Below, in pieces: positions 7,300 through 26,472 of a DNA stretch of 64,000 bases; position 1 is the stretch's first letter; every line of letters starts with the position of its first letter. The notes beneath the pieces are model-generated. The model did not search any database. It was not told the origin of the DNA and saw only the letters and a list, made by a program, of their open reading frames with translations. The position numbers were made by a program, and so were the translations under genes. This stretch comes from Oenococcus kitaharae (GTDB taxonomy: Bacteria; Bacillota; Bacilli; Lactobacillales; Lactobacillaceae), in assembly GCF_025758695.1 (NCBI RefSeq), contig NZ_JANJQP010000002.1, forward strand, positions 124,001 through 188,000. The letters are read 5' to 3'.

Positions 7300-8307
7300 A
7301 TGGGTAGGAAAATTACGATTAAAGAAGTTGCTGCTAAGGCCGGGTTATCAGCTACGGCCGTCAGCCAAATCCTGAATGGCAAAGGCGCGCGTTTTTCCAA
7401 AAAAAATATTCAAAAGGTTCTGCAGGCAAAAGAGGAGCTGCATTATGTACCAAATTCTGCCGCAAGAAACCTCAGTAATAAGACGGATTCTACGATCGGG
7501 GTCTTGGTACCAACAATTTCCAACCCTTTTTTTAGTGAATTTTTACAATTGCTGGAAAACTATTCCGATGCACATACACATATTTTAATGGTCGGCTTGG
7601 ATGGCGACAGAAGCCAGCTGTATTCTGCGATTGAAGGTTTGATTGGCCAGAATGTTGACGGCTTGATTATTGCAGTTGCCATTCAAGAAAATTCTCAAGT
7701 GACCAATTTGTTAAAAGAAAATCGCACCCCTTATATTGTGCTTGATCAAAATAGCAGCAAAAATTCTGATTTTATTGCTTCTGATGACTTTCATGGCGGT
7801 GAAATTGTTGCACACTATCTTTATTCGTTAGGACATCGCCGCTTCAGTGTCGTGGTGCCTGATAAAAATGCGATGACTGCCAATTTAGCCTTGCGATTAC
7901 AAGGTTTTACAGAGACCTGCCGCGATTTAGGTATTCAAACAACACAAATTCAAATTGTTAAAACTGCTTTTACGAAACATGGCGGGCAGCGGGCTGTCCC
8001 AAATATTCTAGCCTTTAAACCAAGTGCGATTTTTACTTTAAGCGATGAATTAGCAATTGGCGTTTTGGGCGGTTTATTTAACGCCGGCGAGCAGGTACCG
8101 CGGGATTATTCCTTAGTTGGTTACGATGATACAGATTATGCCGAATTCACAAATCCTAAGTTAACTACTGTTCGCCAGCCCGTAGAGCTGATTGCCAAAT
8201 ATGTTTTGGAAATGCTGAAGAATAGAATTGCGGATCCCCAAATAGACTGGCAGGTTATGGCTGTTGATGTTGAGTTGATTGTACGCGACTCGGTTCGAGA
8301 AATTTAA
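7300..8307 (+). CDS. rbsR: LacI-family transcriptional regulator, probable ribose repressor
   Basis: 335 aa. LacI HTH at the N-terminus (ITIKEVAAKAGLSATAVSQI), hinge around residues 45-60, then a periplasmic-binding-like sugar domain (IGVLVPTISNPFFSEF onward). A LacI-type operator at 8363-8382 sits in front of the rbs genes just downstream, so it is probably the pentose/ribose repressor. No SD is visible. TATACT ends 7 nt before the ATG, which suggests a leaderless mRNA with its own promoter rather than readthrough from the importer operon. Confidence 0.85.
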   Translation: MGRKITIKEVAAKAGLSATAVSQILNGKGARFSKKNIQKVLQAKEELHYVPNSAARNLSNKTDSTIGVLVPTISNPFFSEFLQLLENYSDAHTHILMVGLDGDRSQLYSAIEGLIGQNVDGLIIAVAIQENSQVTNLLKENRTPYIVLDQNSSKNSDFIASDDFHGGEIVAHYLYSLGHRRFSVVVPDKNAMTANLALRLQGFTETCRDLGIQTTQIQIVKTAFTKHGGQRAVPNILAFKPSAIFTLSDELAIGVLGGLFNAGEQVPRDYSLVGYDDTDYAEFTNPKLTTVRQPVELIAKYVLEMLKNRIADPQIDWQVMAVDVELIVRDSVREI

Positions 8308-8321
8308 ATTCTTTCAGTAAA

Positions 8322-8336
8322 ATGTAAGCGTTTTCG
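8322..8336 (+). promoter_or_regulatory. Candidate catabolite-responsive element (cre)
   Basis: ATGTAAGCGTTTTCG fits the CcpA cre consensus WTGNNARCGNWWWCA except for the last base. It covers the expected -35 area of the rbs promoter, whose -10 TATACT is at 8349-8354. Glucose repression through CcpA is inferred. Confidence 0.55.
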
Positions 8337-8362
8337 TTGAATATTTGTTATACTATTCGCTG

Positions 8363-8382
8363 ATGGTAAACCGTTTTACCAT
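8363..8382. promoter_or_regulatory. LacI-type operator in front of rbsK
   Basis: TGGTAAACCGTTTTACCA (8364-8381) is a near-perfect palindrome around a central CG, the hallmark of LacI-family operators. It lies just downstream of the -10 TATACT, where a bound repressor would block initiation. The adjacent RbsR-like protein is the obvious ligand. Confidence 0.7.
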
Positions 8383-8430
8383 ACAAAGGGATGCATTGAG
8401 CGGCTGGGGATTCGGCCGGAGGGGGACGTA

Positions 8431-9357
8431 ATCGAAAAACAAAATAAAAAAATTGTTGTCTTGGGGTCTTTGAATGTCGATACGATTCAGCACATGGATA
8501 AATTGCCTGAACGCGGCGAGACGATTCACATTAACAGTCTGACGAGTGCACCGGGCGGCAAAGGGGCCAATCAAGCCGTTGCGGCTGCTAGGCAAGGTGC
8601 GCAAGTCAGCTTTATCGGAGCTGTGGGCGATGATGCTAATGGCCGTTTTATGAAACAAGCATTGGCTGATAATCAGATTGATGTTTCTCGGATTGTGACT
8701 AAGTCGGTACCAACCGGGTCAGCTTCGATTCTGCTGGAAGCTGATGGCAGCAACACGATTCTAGTATATGGTGGTGCCAACATGCGGGTAACGGTGGAAG
8801 ACGTTCAGGCAGCCGAAGATGAAATTGCTGAAGCAGATGCGATTATCACTCAATTTGAGACGCCGATTCCAGCTGCGATCCGTGCTTTTGAAATTGCGAA
8901 GAAGCATCACGTTATGACGATTTTAAACCCGGCCCCGGCGAAAAAGATTGACGCGGGACTGCTGCGTTTATCTGATTTTGTCACGCCCAATGAGACCGAG
9001 GCACAGGTTTTAATTGACCAGGATGTTGCCTTTAATCAGGACTCACTCATGAATGCTGCTCAAGCATTAGAAAAATTAGGCGTCAAAAATACATTGATTA
9101 CCTTGGGGAAGTCAGGGTCCTTTTACAAAGTCGCTGATAAATCCGGTATGATTCCGAGTTTTAAAGTTAAAGCTGTCGATACGACTGCCGCTGGTGATAC
9201 TTTTATCGGTGTTTTTGCGGCCAACATCAAAAACGATTTGAGCAATTTGGTACCAACGCTGATTTGGGCCAGCCGGAGTTCTTCGCTGACTGTCCAAAAA
9301 GCTGGCGCTTTGCCTTCTATTCCTACTTTTGCAGAGGTTGAGGCAGATGAAAAATGA
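8431..9357 (+). CDS. rbsK: Ribokinase, apparent AUC start codon
   Basis: 308 aa PfkB-family kinase that phosphorylates ribose to ribose-5-phosphate. Visible are the first strand [12 protein letters not shown], the sugar-binding GGKGANQA and the catalytic DTTAAGDTF. The only canonical in-frame start is TTG 8461, which would delete the first beta strand and lies 38 nt from any SD. An in-frame ATC at 8431 has GGAGG ideally spaced 8 nt upstream (8418-8422) and restores the full N-terminus, so I set the start there. No ATG, GTG or TTG occurs in frame upstream as far as I checked (to ~8389). A sequencing error in an ATG is the alternative. First gene of rbsKDACB; it overlaps rbsD by ATGA. Confidence 0.85.
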
Positions 9358-9752
9358 AAAAAGGTGTTCTGTTAAATTCTGAAATTTCGGCTGTCGTTGC
9401 TGATATGGGCCACTTTGATACTTTGGCTATCGGTGACGCCGGCATGCCTGTGCCTGCCGGTACTAAAAAAATCGATTTGGCTGTGACAAAAGATTTACCT
9501 CGTTTTGATGATGTTGTAAAAACAATTCTTCAAGAATTGGAAGTTCAAAGAGCCTATGTTGCTTTAGAAATGAAGACAAATAATCCAGAAGGATTAAAGA
9601 GCCTAATTGATATTCTGGGCAGTCAAGTGGAAATTGTGTTTATTCCGCACGAACAAATGAAAAAAGACCTTAAATATGCGCGGGCATTTGTCCGCACCGG
9701 CGAGGAACATCCTTTTTCAAACGTGATTTTAGAATCAGGCGTTGTCTTCTAG
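9354..9752 (+). CDS. rbsD: D-ribose pyranase
   Basis: 132 aa, the usual RbsD length. It opens [20 protein letters not shown], with the family's catalytic His20 in the MGH motif, and continues with GDAGMPVP. It interconverts beta-pyranose and furanose forms of ribose, so that imported sugar suits ribokinase. It overlaps rbsK by four bases and ends 12 nt before rbsA. Confidence 0.92.
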
Positions 9753-19062: not shown

Positions 19063-19518
19063 TTAGGCTGTCAGTATTTTTTGCATCTTGCGGTGCTGAA
19101 TGTTAGCATCCAAAAAGATGTCGCCATAGGCGGCGTATCCTAAATTTTCATAAAAAGAAATTGCATGAACTTGAGCCTCCAGCTCAAGTTTTTTTATATG
19201 TTGTTTTTTGGCGTCGATTTCAATCTGTTTCAATAATTGGCTGGCAAATCCTTTTCCACGAAAATTTTTGAAAGTTGCAACACGCCCAATGTGCCAGCTA
19301 TCATGATTCACTGTGTAAATTCTGCTGGTCGTGGCCGGCTGCCAGTCCTGCACATAGCCGACATAATGCAGACAATGGCCATCTTGCCCGTCTATCTCGT
19401 CTGCTGGACTGACATTTTCTTCCAGCATAAAGACAGCCCGGCGGATTTTCATAGCATCATCAAGAACTTTGCCAGGTCCGAACAGGCTGGCAATAATTAA
19501 TTTTTCGTTATCTGACAT
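19063..19518 (-). CDS. GNAT-family acetyltransferase
   Basis: 151 aa from ATG 19518 (MSDNEKLIIAS). The acetyl-CoA loop is visible as IGRVATFKNFRGKGFASQLL, and the end YENLGYAAYG is typical of GNAT motif B. The substrate is unknown. TATAAT ends 9 nt before the ATG with no SD. Convergent with prs, four bases apart. Confidence 0.8.
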   Translation of the reverse strand: MSDNEKLIIASLFGPGKVLDDAMKIRRAVFMLEENVSPADEIDGQDGHCLHYVGYVQDWQPATTSRIYTVNHDSWHIGRVATFKNFRGKGFASQLLKQIEIDAKKQHIKKLELEAQVHAISFYENLGYAAYGDIFLDANIQHRKMQKILTA

Positions 19519-19636
19519 AATCACTTAATTATAGGCTGTTTTACAAAATCTAAAATGGTCTTATACAAGGCTGAAAATTGTTTGGATTGTTAATAAATTT
19601 TAGAAAAAAAGACGGCTTCATTATATAATTGCCCTT

Positions 19637-24442: not shown

Positions 24443-24468
24443 AAAAGACGCCGTAAGACGTCTTTTTT
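24441..24468. terminator. Bidirectional terminator between the LTA-synthase-like gene and corA
   Basis: AAAAAAGACG and CGTCTTTTTT flank an 8 nt loop. The symmetry with A- and T-runs serves both convergent transcripts. Confidence 0.9.
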
Positions 24469-25381
24469 AGCGGTCGAAGAAATGTGCTTTGATTAAAATA
24501 TAGATTTCGACAATGATTAATAGTCCTGTAATTGCAAAAGTCAGCAGCCAAGAATAGGGCATATTCGTAAAGGGCAGTTTCATATTCATCCCGTAAAAGC
24601 CTGTCACAATTGTCGGTACAGCCATTAATGCTTGCAGCATTGTCAAAATTCTTAATGACTTGTCCAAACGCTGATTGTTCAAATTGGTATAGGCACCCGA
24701 AATGGCTCCAATGACTTCAGCCGCTTGATTGGCCATATCGACCGCTTGTGTGTTTTCCACGAGGACATCGGCAAAGTATTCTTTTTGCCGATCATCTACC
24801 TGACCGCCCAAATAGGCTTGCAGTCGTGAAATGGCTGTCCGATCAGTTCTCAAAGAATCCAGCATATAAATCATTTGTGTTTCCAATTCCATTAAAGATG
24901 AAATGGCACCAGATTGAATTTTTTGTCTGAGATTAGATTGAATGACGTTCCGCCGCCGGTTCACGGTTGTAATTGTGCTGATGTATTCTGCAATTAAAAC
25001 TGAACTGGTATTTAAAAAGATATCTATTGCTGTCAAATGGCTTTTGTCGGGATAATTTTCCCTGGCTGTAGCAAACAGTTTTTCAGAAATTCTGGTCGTT
25101 GTCGAACGAGCAATGGTATAAAAATTGCCTTTTTTATCAATCAGCATGCCAACTGGCTCTGTGGCAGCCAAGCGGGAATTGGGTGTGATAATATCAAAGA
25201 CAATCAGTGAATTTCCGCTAACCGAATCGATTTCAGTACGGGCCGATTCATTTGGATCCAAGGCATAAAAAAGCATCTCACGGGTCACGCCCAGTTTGAT
25301 TAATTGATCCTGTTCTGCTTGGCTGGGATCTTGCACCTCGTACCAAATCAATTTTGTATTTATTTGATGTGTTTTCAGCAT
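24467..25381 (-). CDS. corA: CorA-family magnesium/divalent cation channel
   Basis: 304 aa from the ATG that shares bases with the preceding stop (TAATG). A long cytoplasmic helical part is followed by two C-terminal helices and the diagnostic YGMNM loop (~275). It mediates Mg2+ or related cation uptake as a pentamer. Translationally coupled to the DUF218 gene upstream. Confidence 0.9.
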   Translation of the reverse strand: MLKTHQINTKLIWYEVQDPSQAEQDQLIKLGVTREMLFYALDPNESARTEIDSVSGNSLIVFDIITPNSRLAATEPVGMLIDKKGNFYTIARSTTTRISEKLFATARENYPDKSHLTAIDIFLNTSSVLIAEYISTITTVNRRRNVIQSNLRQKIQSGAISSLMELETQMIYMLDSLRTDRTAISRLQAYLGGQVDDRQKEYFADVLVENTQAVDMANQAAEVIGAISGAYTNLNNQRLDKSLRILTMLQALMAVPTIVTGFYGMNMKLPFTNMPYSWLLTFAITGLLIIVEIYILIKAHFFDR

Positions 25382-26472
25382 TAGAAAAACCAGATTAACA
25401 TCGCCAAAAATAAACTGGCAAACAAGAACAATAATAGCACGACCATCTGTTGACGTTTTTTTATCAACAGCATGGCAGCAAATTCTCGAAACCATCCGGA
25501 AGCGATATAATTTTTAGGCGTTTTTGCCGGAATGGCCGTGATTTTGATTTTTTGTTTTTTGGCAAGGTATGCGGCCCTGGTCAAATGATAAGAGTTACTA
25601 ACAAAGGCCAGCTGTAGTGATTCACTATTATGATGTTCTTGGCTAATGAGCTGCAGGGAATTTTTAAAGTTTTCACGTGTGTTCGTGGATGAATTTTCGT
25701 AACGAATTTTATTTTTCGGGTAACCAGCCTTGAGTAGTTCCTGGCCGATGGCCGCCGCCTCACTGAGTTTTTCATCGCTGCCTTTTCCGCCAGAAGCAAT
25801 AATTATTGCTTGTCCGTGATTTTGTGCAAAAAAGATGACTGTTTTGATGCGCTGGGCCAAGCTGGCAGAAATTTGCTTGCCGTTGATTAATCCAGCTCCC
25901 AAGATAATCACATAATCATAGCTGCCAGCTTGCCTGGCGGCACGATGGCCCTGCCAATTAATTAAAAATGTCTGTGTTAGAAAATTAGCGAATACAAAAG
26001 CTAAATAAATCGTAAATAGCGGGGCAAAGGCAAGCAACGCTGCCCAAGCAGCTGGCAGTTTGATCTGGAAAAAATCCATGATTAGCAGTATACAGATGAC
26101 TGTAAAAATGAAAATAACCAAATCGGTCGCGAAATGATATCGTGAGCGGTATTTCTTGTTGGCTGATAGCCTAAAGCTCCAAGCAACCAGCGTTAGTGCG
26201 GAATAGAGGGCTAGGCCGATAATGGCAGCTGCGAGTATGCCGATAGCAATTGAAACGACAGTAAAGGCCAGCAACCCCCGATCAGCCGAGGCCAACAGGA
26301 AAAAAACCAGCAGAGAATAAAGGGATAAGTTTAAAAACCAGCCGCACTTGAGAGAATAGCGATTGAGGTGCGAGACAAAAACTGCTAAGAGCAGAAAAAT
26401 CAGCGCCAACCCTAGCGGTATGACAGGATTAATGCCGCTACTTAAAAGAATTGTTTGCAACTGTTTGAACAC
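25381..26472 (-). CDS. DUF218/YdcF-like membrane protein
   Basis: 363 aa. About five N-terminal helices are followed by a DUF218 domain beginning YDYVIILGAGLINGKQ (~185), then GGKGSDEKLSEAAAIG and the SNSYHLTRA segment, and one last C-terminal helix. This family includes ElyC/SanA-like proteins linked to envelope integrity; biochemistry is poorly known. GTG start, four bases after the ykoC-like gene, so it is probably the distal part of the same transcript. Confidence 0.8.
   Translation of the reverse strand: MFKQLQTILLSSGINPVIPLGLALIFLLLAVFVSHLNRYSLKCGWFLNLSLYSLLVFFLLASADRGLLAFTVVSIAIGILAAAIIGLALYSALTLVAWSFRLSANKKYRSRYHFATDLVIFIFTVICILLIMDFFQIKLPAAWAALLAFAPLFTIYLAFVFANFLTQTFLINWQGHRAARQAGSYDYVIILGAGLINGKQISASLAQRIKTVIFFAQNHGQAIIIASGGKGSDEKLSEAAAIGQELLKAGYPKNKIRYENSSTNTRENFKNSLQLISQEHHNSESLQLAFVSNSYHLTRAAYLAKKQKIKITAIPAKTPKNYIASGWFREFAAMLLIKKRQQMVVLLLFLFASLFLAMLIWFF

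Follow-up and report, generated by a model that had tools for sequence, protein, structure and literature searches.

The window analyzed here is a stretch of 64,000 nucleotides of Oenococcus kitaharae DNA (NZ_JANJQP010000002.1, positions 124,001 to 188,000 of the forward strand). It carries rbsR, which encodes a ribose-operon repressor, followed by the ribokinase gene rbsK and by rbsD (Table 1). No stop interrupts the rbsK frame between 8341 and the stop codon at 9355-9357, which overlaps the start of rbsD in the sequence ATGA. Between the upstream stop codon and the TTG at 8461, this frame contains no ATG, GTG or TTG. A first-pass annotation had proposed that translation starts at an ATC codon optimally spaced, at 8 nt, from a GGAGG Shine-Dalgarno sequence, and our coordinates for both elements and for the distance between them agree with that description. 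The anti-Shine-Dalgarno sequence of the 16S rRNA is normal in this genome. Read from the ATC, RbsK passes the TIGR02152 ribokinase test, with residues 8 to 304 falling on positions 1 to 297 of a profile of 298. The ribokinases 3ry7 (1.3e-75) and 1gqt (4.2e-60) in the PDB are similar to it, in alignments that begin at residues 6 and 7. A search for loci related to the region returned one distant match only. For the comparisons below we used seven genomes of the genus, G000 to G006, with G000 being the genome of the window.

Upstream of rbsK, a promoter consensus scan found no site at the expected place; its matches were one on the plus strand at 8295-8323 (9/12) and one on the minus strand, that is, 2 found versus 0.7 expected. 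The near-palindrome at 8363..8382, ATGGTAAACCGTTTTACCAT, appears as a hairpin in the fold of the leader, although the leader RNA as a whole is not structured beyond chance (z of -0.14). Located after rbsR and resembled by GTAAAACGTTTTAC sites that precede rbsK in some further genera, the near-palindrome is probably an RbsR-type operator.

Table 1. Features of the rbsK locus and two CAU tRNAs of the same genome (window positions unless a locus or contig handle is given)
Feature	Position	Strand	Evidence or remark
rbsR, ribose-operon repressor	7300..8307	+	ORF upstream of rbsK; NCBIfam NF047341, 404 bits vs cut-off 382
Candidate -10 element of rbsK promoter, TATACT	8349..8354	+	not among the consensus-scan sites; weak candidate
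Putative RbsR-type operator, near-palindrome ATGGTAAACCGTTTTACCAT	8363..8382	+	18/20 positions equal its own reverse complement
Shine-Dalgarno GGAGG of rbsK	8418..8422	+	also in G002, G003, G004
rbsK ATC start codon	8431..8433	+	ATC in 5/5 genus genomes with orthologue
rbsK, ribokinase, 308 aa	8431..9357	+	TIGR02152, 330.1 bits vs cut-off 299.65
TTG, first canonical in-frame codon of rbsK	8461..8463	+	residue 11; not conserved as a start
rbsD, D-ribose pyranase	9354..9752	+	NF008761, 168 bits vs cut-off 93
G000 initiator tRNA	L085 1292-1367; G000:C1 about 535022-535095	-	A29-U41, C33
Fourth, unusual CAU tRNA	L074 9242-9313; G000:C2 197242-197313	-	46.6 bits, weakest of 43

The rbsK start region within and beyond the genus

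A DNA match to the rbsK region was found in six of the seven genus genomes, and five of them (G000 to G004) carry an orthologue of the rbsK of the window. G000 and G001 show 4 differences in 4201 bases around rbsK with the start codon untouched, so the two assemblies agree, and because they are near copies the five genomes amount to four lineages. The DNA of G002, G003 and G004 is 72-73% identical to the window over the match. Comparison with relatives, which the first-pass annotation had suggested as a check, revealed ATC after GGAGG at the homologous codon in all five orthologue-bearing genomes, at a spacing of 8 nt in G000, G002 and G004 and of 5 nt in G003. The codon preceding it differs (GTA in G000 and G001, GTC in G002, ATT in G003, and ATC in G004), and the constancy of the ATC beside this changing neighbor supports AUC as the start. 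None of the first 16 rbsK codons of G002, G003 or G004 is ATG, GTG or TTG, and the stretch from the ATC to residue 11 is free of indels across the four lineages. In G004, only 5 open codons separate the upstream stop from the ATC, which makes a long N-terminal extension impossible there. Judged as an AU-H start, the rbsK codon follows a Shine-Dalgarno sequence, is conserved, and has no canonical alternative that is shared.

The individual genomes do not contribute equally. A frameshift interrupts the rbsK of G002 (G002:C4, about 67166-68082) past residue ∼90, which lessens its weight as evidence for the AUC start; the start region itself is intact. G005, which is 68% complete, encodes a ribokinase that is 46% identical, lies on a long branch and starts with ATG; in G006 (65% complete), rbsK was not found. 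The second ribokinases of G002 and G004 apparently start with GTG. Given that the five ATC genomes are related, their conservation reflects few events rather than many. The proposal that the ribokinase starts at AUC is supported by the ATC of the five orthologues, the TIGR02152 match from residue 8 and the lack of a canonical codon among the first 16 in G002, G003 and G004; the sequence features are confirmed, and the AUC start of rbsK is well supported.

The surroundings of the gene vary within the genus. The genes rbsDACB, located downstream of rbsK in the window and in G003, were unmatched in the stretches of G002 and G004 that were examined; about 1.4 kb past the rbsK start, both of these genomes have a frame for an MFS-type transporter.

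Can translation start at a codon other than this ATC? The TTG at 8461 is the first canonical in-frame codon of rbsK in the window, and a start there or at another canonical codon would make the upstream conservation incidental. This TTG is not conserved, being replaced by CTC in G003 and by CTT in G002 and G004, and it lies 38 nt from the Shine-Dalgarno sequence. As the first-pass annotation had argued, its use would truncate the fold, since it would cost the protein positions 1 to 3 of TIGR02152 and a portion of the first strand, which is placed by homology only. The homology to ribokinases from residues 6 to 8 likewise supports the AUC over TTG 8461, and we consider a canonical start very improbable. 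We give a slight chance to initiation at a neighboring near-start, which would make the ATC codon 2 or a later codon. ATT, ATC, GTC or GTA stands immediately 5' of the ATC, and G002 and G004 have a TTG in frame 5 codons upstream, where it overlaps the Shine-Dalgarno sequence and has none of its own. However, this TTG is absent from G000 and G003, and none of the neighboring near-starts is common to all four lineages, whereas the ATC is.

The first-pass annotation had also allowed for a point mutation of ATG to ATC or a sequence error. In a single genome, a mutated or misread ATG would appear identical to an ATC start, and a change of this kind is described for a Neisseria gene copy (PMC10210955). 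The identical ATC in five genomes and four lineages rules out a recent mutation or sequencing error for practical purposes, leaving it a negligible probability. Ribokinase genes of other genera argue in the same direction. A family comparison matched 271 of 301 genomes, and we inspected the best 30 loci of the 271, 25 of them from outside the genus. In all 25 out-of-genus loci, an ATG sits 3-4 codons downstream of the ATC position (one of the loci carries an ATG at +2 too), and at +3, where other genera have ATG, the genus genomes read CAA or GAA.

These comparisons favor initiation at AUC 8431, and the phylogeny of the gene is informative about its history. In a tree of 33 rows, from which G002 was excluded, the AUC genes of G000, G001, G003 and G004 formed one group with a support of 100/99, adjoined by the long-branched ribokinase of G005. 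A single origin of the AUC start within the genus, with the codon retained since then, fits the tree.

ATC and other start codons in the genome

The RbsK proteins of G000, G003 and G004 have 21 isoleucine columns in common, and only in the start column do all three use ATC. Across the three species, the remaining 20 columns comprise 47 ATT, 11 ATC and 2 ATA codons. Multiplying the ATC frequencies of the three species gives 0.0026, an approximate value that ignores shared ancestry. Among the 44 ORFs of the window with homologues in relatives, only rbsK has its first canonical codon far inside the conserved protein. Nine of the 44 had no clean shared start, and for each of them a canonical codon is present in the genome of the window. 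In the ORF at 24467-25513, the codon common to every copy is the 45th, and the part ahead of it is non-coding, as stops in G004 demonstrate. One G002 codon among the starts compared reads "atn". Another of the nine, at 19063-19524 (minus strand), has a G003 homologue that, alone among the copies, offers no ATG, GTG or TTG close to the conserved N-terminus when read in the aligned frame; this copy may have diverged, may carry a frameshift or may use another odd start.

A larger comparison set 344 kb of G000, about a fifth of that genome, against 420 kb of G003. Of 128 G000 ORFs with a G003 homologue (at least two of which are tRNA regions and not genes), 96 passed an automatic shared-start test and 32 were flagged; the test is blind to a non-canonical start beside a canonical codon. 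Codon-by-codon examination covered 47 rows (17 + 29 + rbsK), and rbsK was the only one of the 128 compared ORFs without a canonical start in G000. When the same 344 kb of G000 (332 non-overlapping ORFs) were searched for Shine-Dalgarno-like strings followed by ATC, ATT, ATA or CTG, inspection by eye found, besides rbsK, internal or weak matches only. A signal-peptide gene with an apparent ATA start was set aside, as a GTG occurs in frame four codons before the ATA. Within the roughly one-fifth of G000 examined, AUC does not appear to be in general use as a start.

The start of infC is apparently AUA in all six genus genomes with a match. Of 18 outgroup genomes from the order, 15 show an ATA at this position, and for the remaining three the sequence compared stops short of it; five of the 15 have an ATG two codons upstream. 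This AUA is likely the start through which IF3 controls its own synthesis.

The initiator tRNA of the genus

Searches of G000 gave 43 tRNA matches, all covered by ARAGORN. Four have a CAU anticodon, and one of these four shows initiator features. Its anticodon stem is AGG/CCU and its loop CCCAUAA, so that A29-U41 replaces the conserved pair G29-C41, and position 33 has C in place of U. The arm, TCAGGCCCATAACCTGA, was found in six of the seven genus genomes, each with AGG/CCU and hence with one G-C pair of the anticodon stem replaced; the 68% complete G005 had no match. The other five arm-bearing genomes repeat this pattern among the three CAU tRNAs of the corresponding cluster, in which the same two CAU tRNAs accompany the initiator. 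The fourth CAU tRNA of G000 has the stem ATTGC/GCAAT, with no GG..CC stem and no other initiator features. Patterns for an initiator with the canonical stem yielded no match with a CAT anticodon in the seven genus genomes, the three loose matches having other letters. Decoding of AUC by a tRNA with a different anticodon was considered and rejected: the initiator is a variant, and its anticodon is still CAU. A second TCAGGCCCATAACCTGA-type match in G003 (L151, G003:C1 near 1636957) was not called as a tRNA by ARAGORN. A CRISPR-like direct repeat of the CCCCGCACAAGCGGGGGTGATCCT type lies there, with a spacer-like stretch that fits the tRNA pattern.

The exact arm AGGNNCATAACCTGAAGG (AGG/CCU) was absent from the 397 other genomes of a class sample, the one match in 398 being G000 itself; besides G000, the sample contains two genomes of the family and none of the genus. 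The GGG/CCC pattern matched 209 of 301 family genomes, and 92 matched nothing. Among the matches listed, other genera of the family have GGG/CCC with T33 and some have GGG/CCC with C33; C33 beside an intact GGG/CCC stem was observed in several of these genera (g2, g7, g25, g29 and g39). In mycoplasmas, the C-terminal tail of uS9 is changed; no such change was found in the genus, where the tail reads SKR in six of six genomes.

Is the tRNA responsible for the AUC start? One potential explanation is that initiation has been re-tuned, such that the A29-U41/C33 initiator alters the checking of start codons and makes an AUC affordable, with rbsK as the visible consequence. This explanation adds a cause to the AUC start and does not deny it; we regard it as possible but on the unlikely side. 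In its favor, the variant arm is present in six of seven genus genomes and in none of the 397 others, although only two of the latter belong to the same family. Mattingly et al. describe a contact of 16S G1338 with pair 29-41, tie changes in the initiator stem to start-codon stringency, and find CUG less strongly discriminated against once the neighboring 30-40 pair is altered (PMC11497404). The loss of discrimination in that work, however, comes from weaker GUG and UUG complexes and not from a stronger CUG complex. The position of rbsK as the only one of the 128 compared ORFs without a canonical start in G000, with no other AUC gene seen, argues against a general relaxation of start choice. 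Retention of the AUA start of infC suggests that checking by IF3 still matters in the genus. Other genera, too, have C33 by itself, next to an intact GGG/CCC stem, and the uS9 tail is unchanged. The variant initiator and the AUC start are both present in each of the five genomes where both are readable. G006 has the variant tRNA and no rbsK that was found, and G005 has a ribokinase starting with ATG and no tRNA match, which makes the two traits inseparable in this set. We find it doubtful that the genus re-tuned its start choice through an A29-U41/C33 initiator that would loosen or shift the ribosomal check, with AUC fixed on rbsK as an IF3-responsive throttle.

Initiation at AUC and its parallels

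Our data make it very probable that rbsK is read from AUC 8431 by the ordinary fMet-tRNA under guidance of the Shine-Dalgarno sequence, from a start that would have arisen once in the genus, and with synthesis that is likely low and IF3 dependent. The initiator fMet-tRNA (anticodon CAU) would pair with the AUC, leaving a C-C mismatch at the third position. GGAGG and the A-rich codons that follow the AUC would aid initiation, and the predicted N-terminus of RbsK is fMet-Glu-Lys-Gln. As a weak, IF3-sensitive start, the AUC may keep RbsK low in the way proposed for infC, a purpose that we infer. IF3 is reported to repress mRNAs with AUU starts. AUC is counted among real bacterial start triplets in PMC4611024, which sets starts without a 3' G apart from the canonical ones. 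In Escherichia coli ribosome-mutant fidelity assays, AUC serves as a measure of spurious initiation (PMC10250234), which indicates that it is a poor start there. A laboratory AUC start mutation, prokaryotic, appears in PMC10303841.

The literature on AUC starts that we covered is mainly mitochondrial and eukaryotic. In bacteria, infC, which encodes IF3, has AU-H starts under IF3 control. The rbsK start resembles them in being an AU-H codon after a Shine-Dalgarno sequence and conserved across species. It differs in that the product of rbsK is an enzyme of catabolism, for which no link to IF3 is known, and in that its codon is AUC, seen in this genus only. Escherichia coli pcnB has an AUU start that limits synthesis; like rbsK, it is a gene for something other than an initiation factor with an AU-H start, although gene, codon and lineage differ. 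In work by Ayyub et al. from 2018, mycoplasma initiator tRNAs are said to have unusual features and to be accompanied by unusual initiation codons. The genus similarly pairs an unusual initiator tRNA with an unusual initiation codon, but its uS9 tail is unchanged and the codon was seen in one gene other than infC. For the L12ae gene of the archaeon Staphylothermus marinus, PMC2678158 infers an ATC start by alignment because no valid start codon fits. The natural ATC start of rbsK was likewise inferred for want of a valid start codon; the L12ae case concerns an archaeal ribosomal-protein gene in one genome, with no mention of conservation in further species. According to PMC11445065, lacI and other sugar regulators have GTG starts, weak codons being favored in sugar use. 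Unlike the AUC of rbsK, GTG is a common alternative start, and it is found there on regulators, not on the enzyme.

Literature listings on the ribokinase start, the initiator tRNA and non-AUG starts of Oenococcus contained no report of the rbsK AUC case. Natural AU-H starts are already known; the new element is an AUC that a ribokinase has retained, in a genus whose initiator tRNA is itself unusual. Within a partial coverage of the literature, conserved natural AUC starts outside infC seem to be rarely documented. Gene finders restricted to ATG, GTG and TTG would truncate RbsK. With its natural A29-U41/C33 initiator, the genus is also a ready system for asking whether, in living bacteria, the stringency of start-codon choice depends on how firmly the anticodon stem of the initiator is held.
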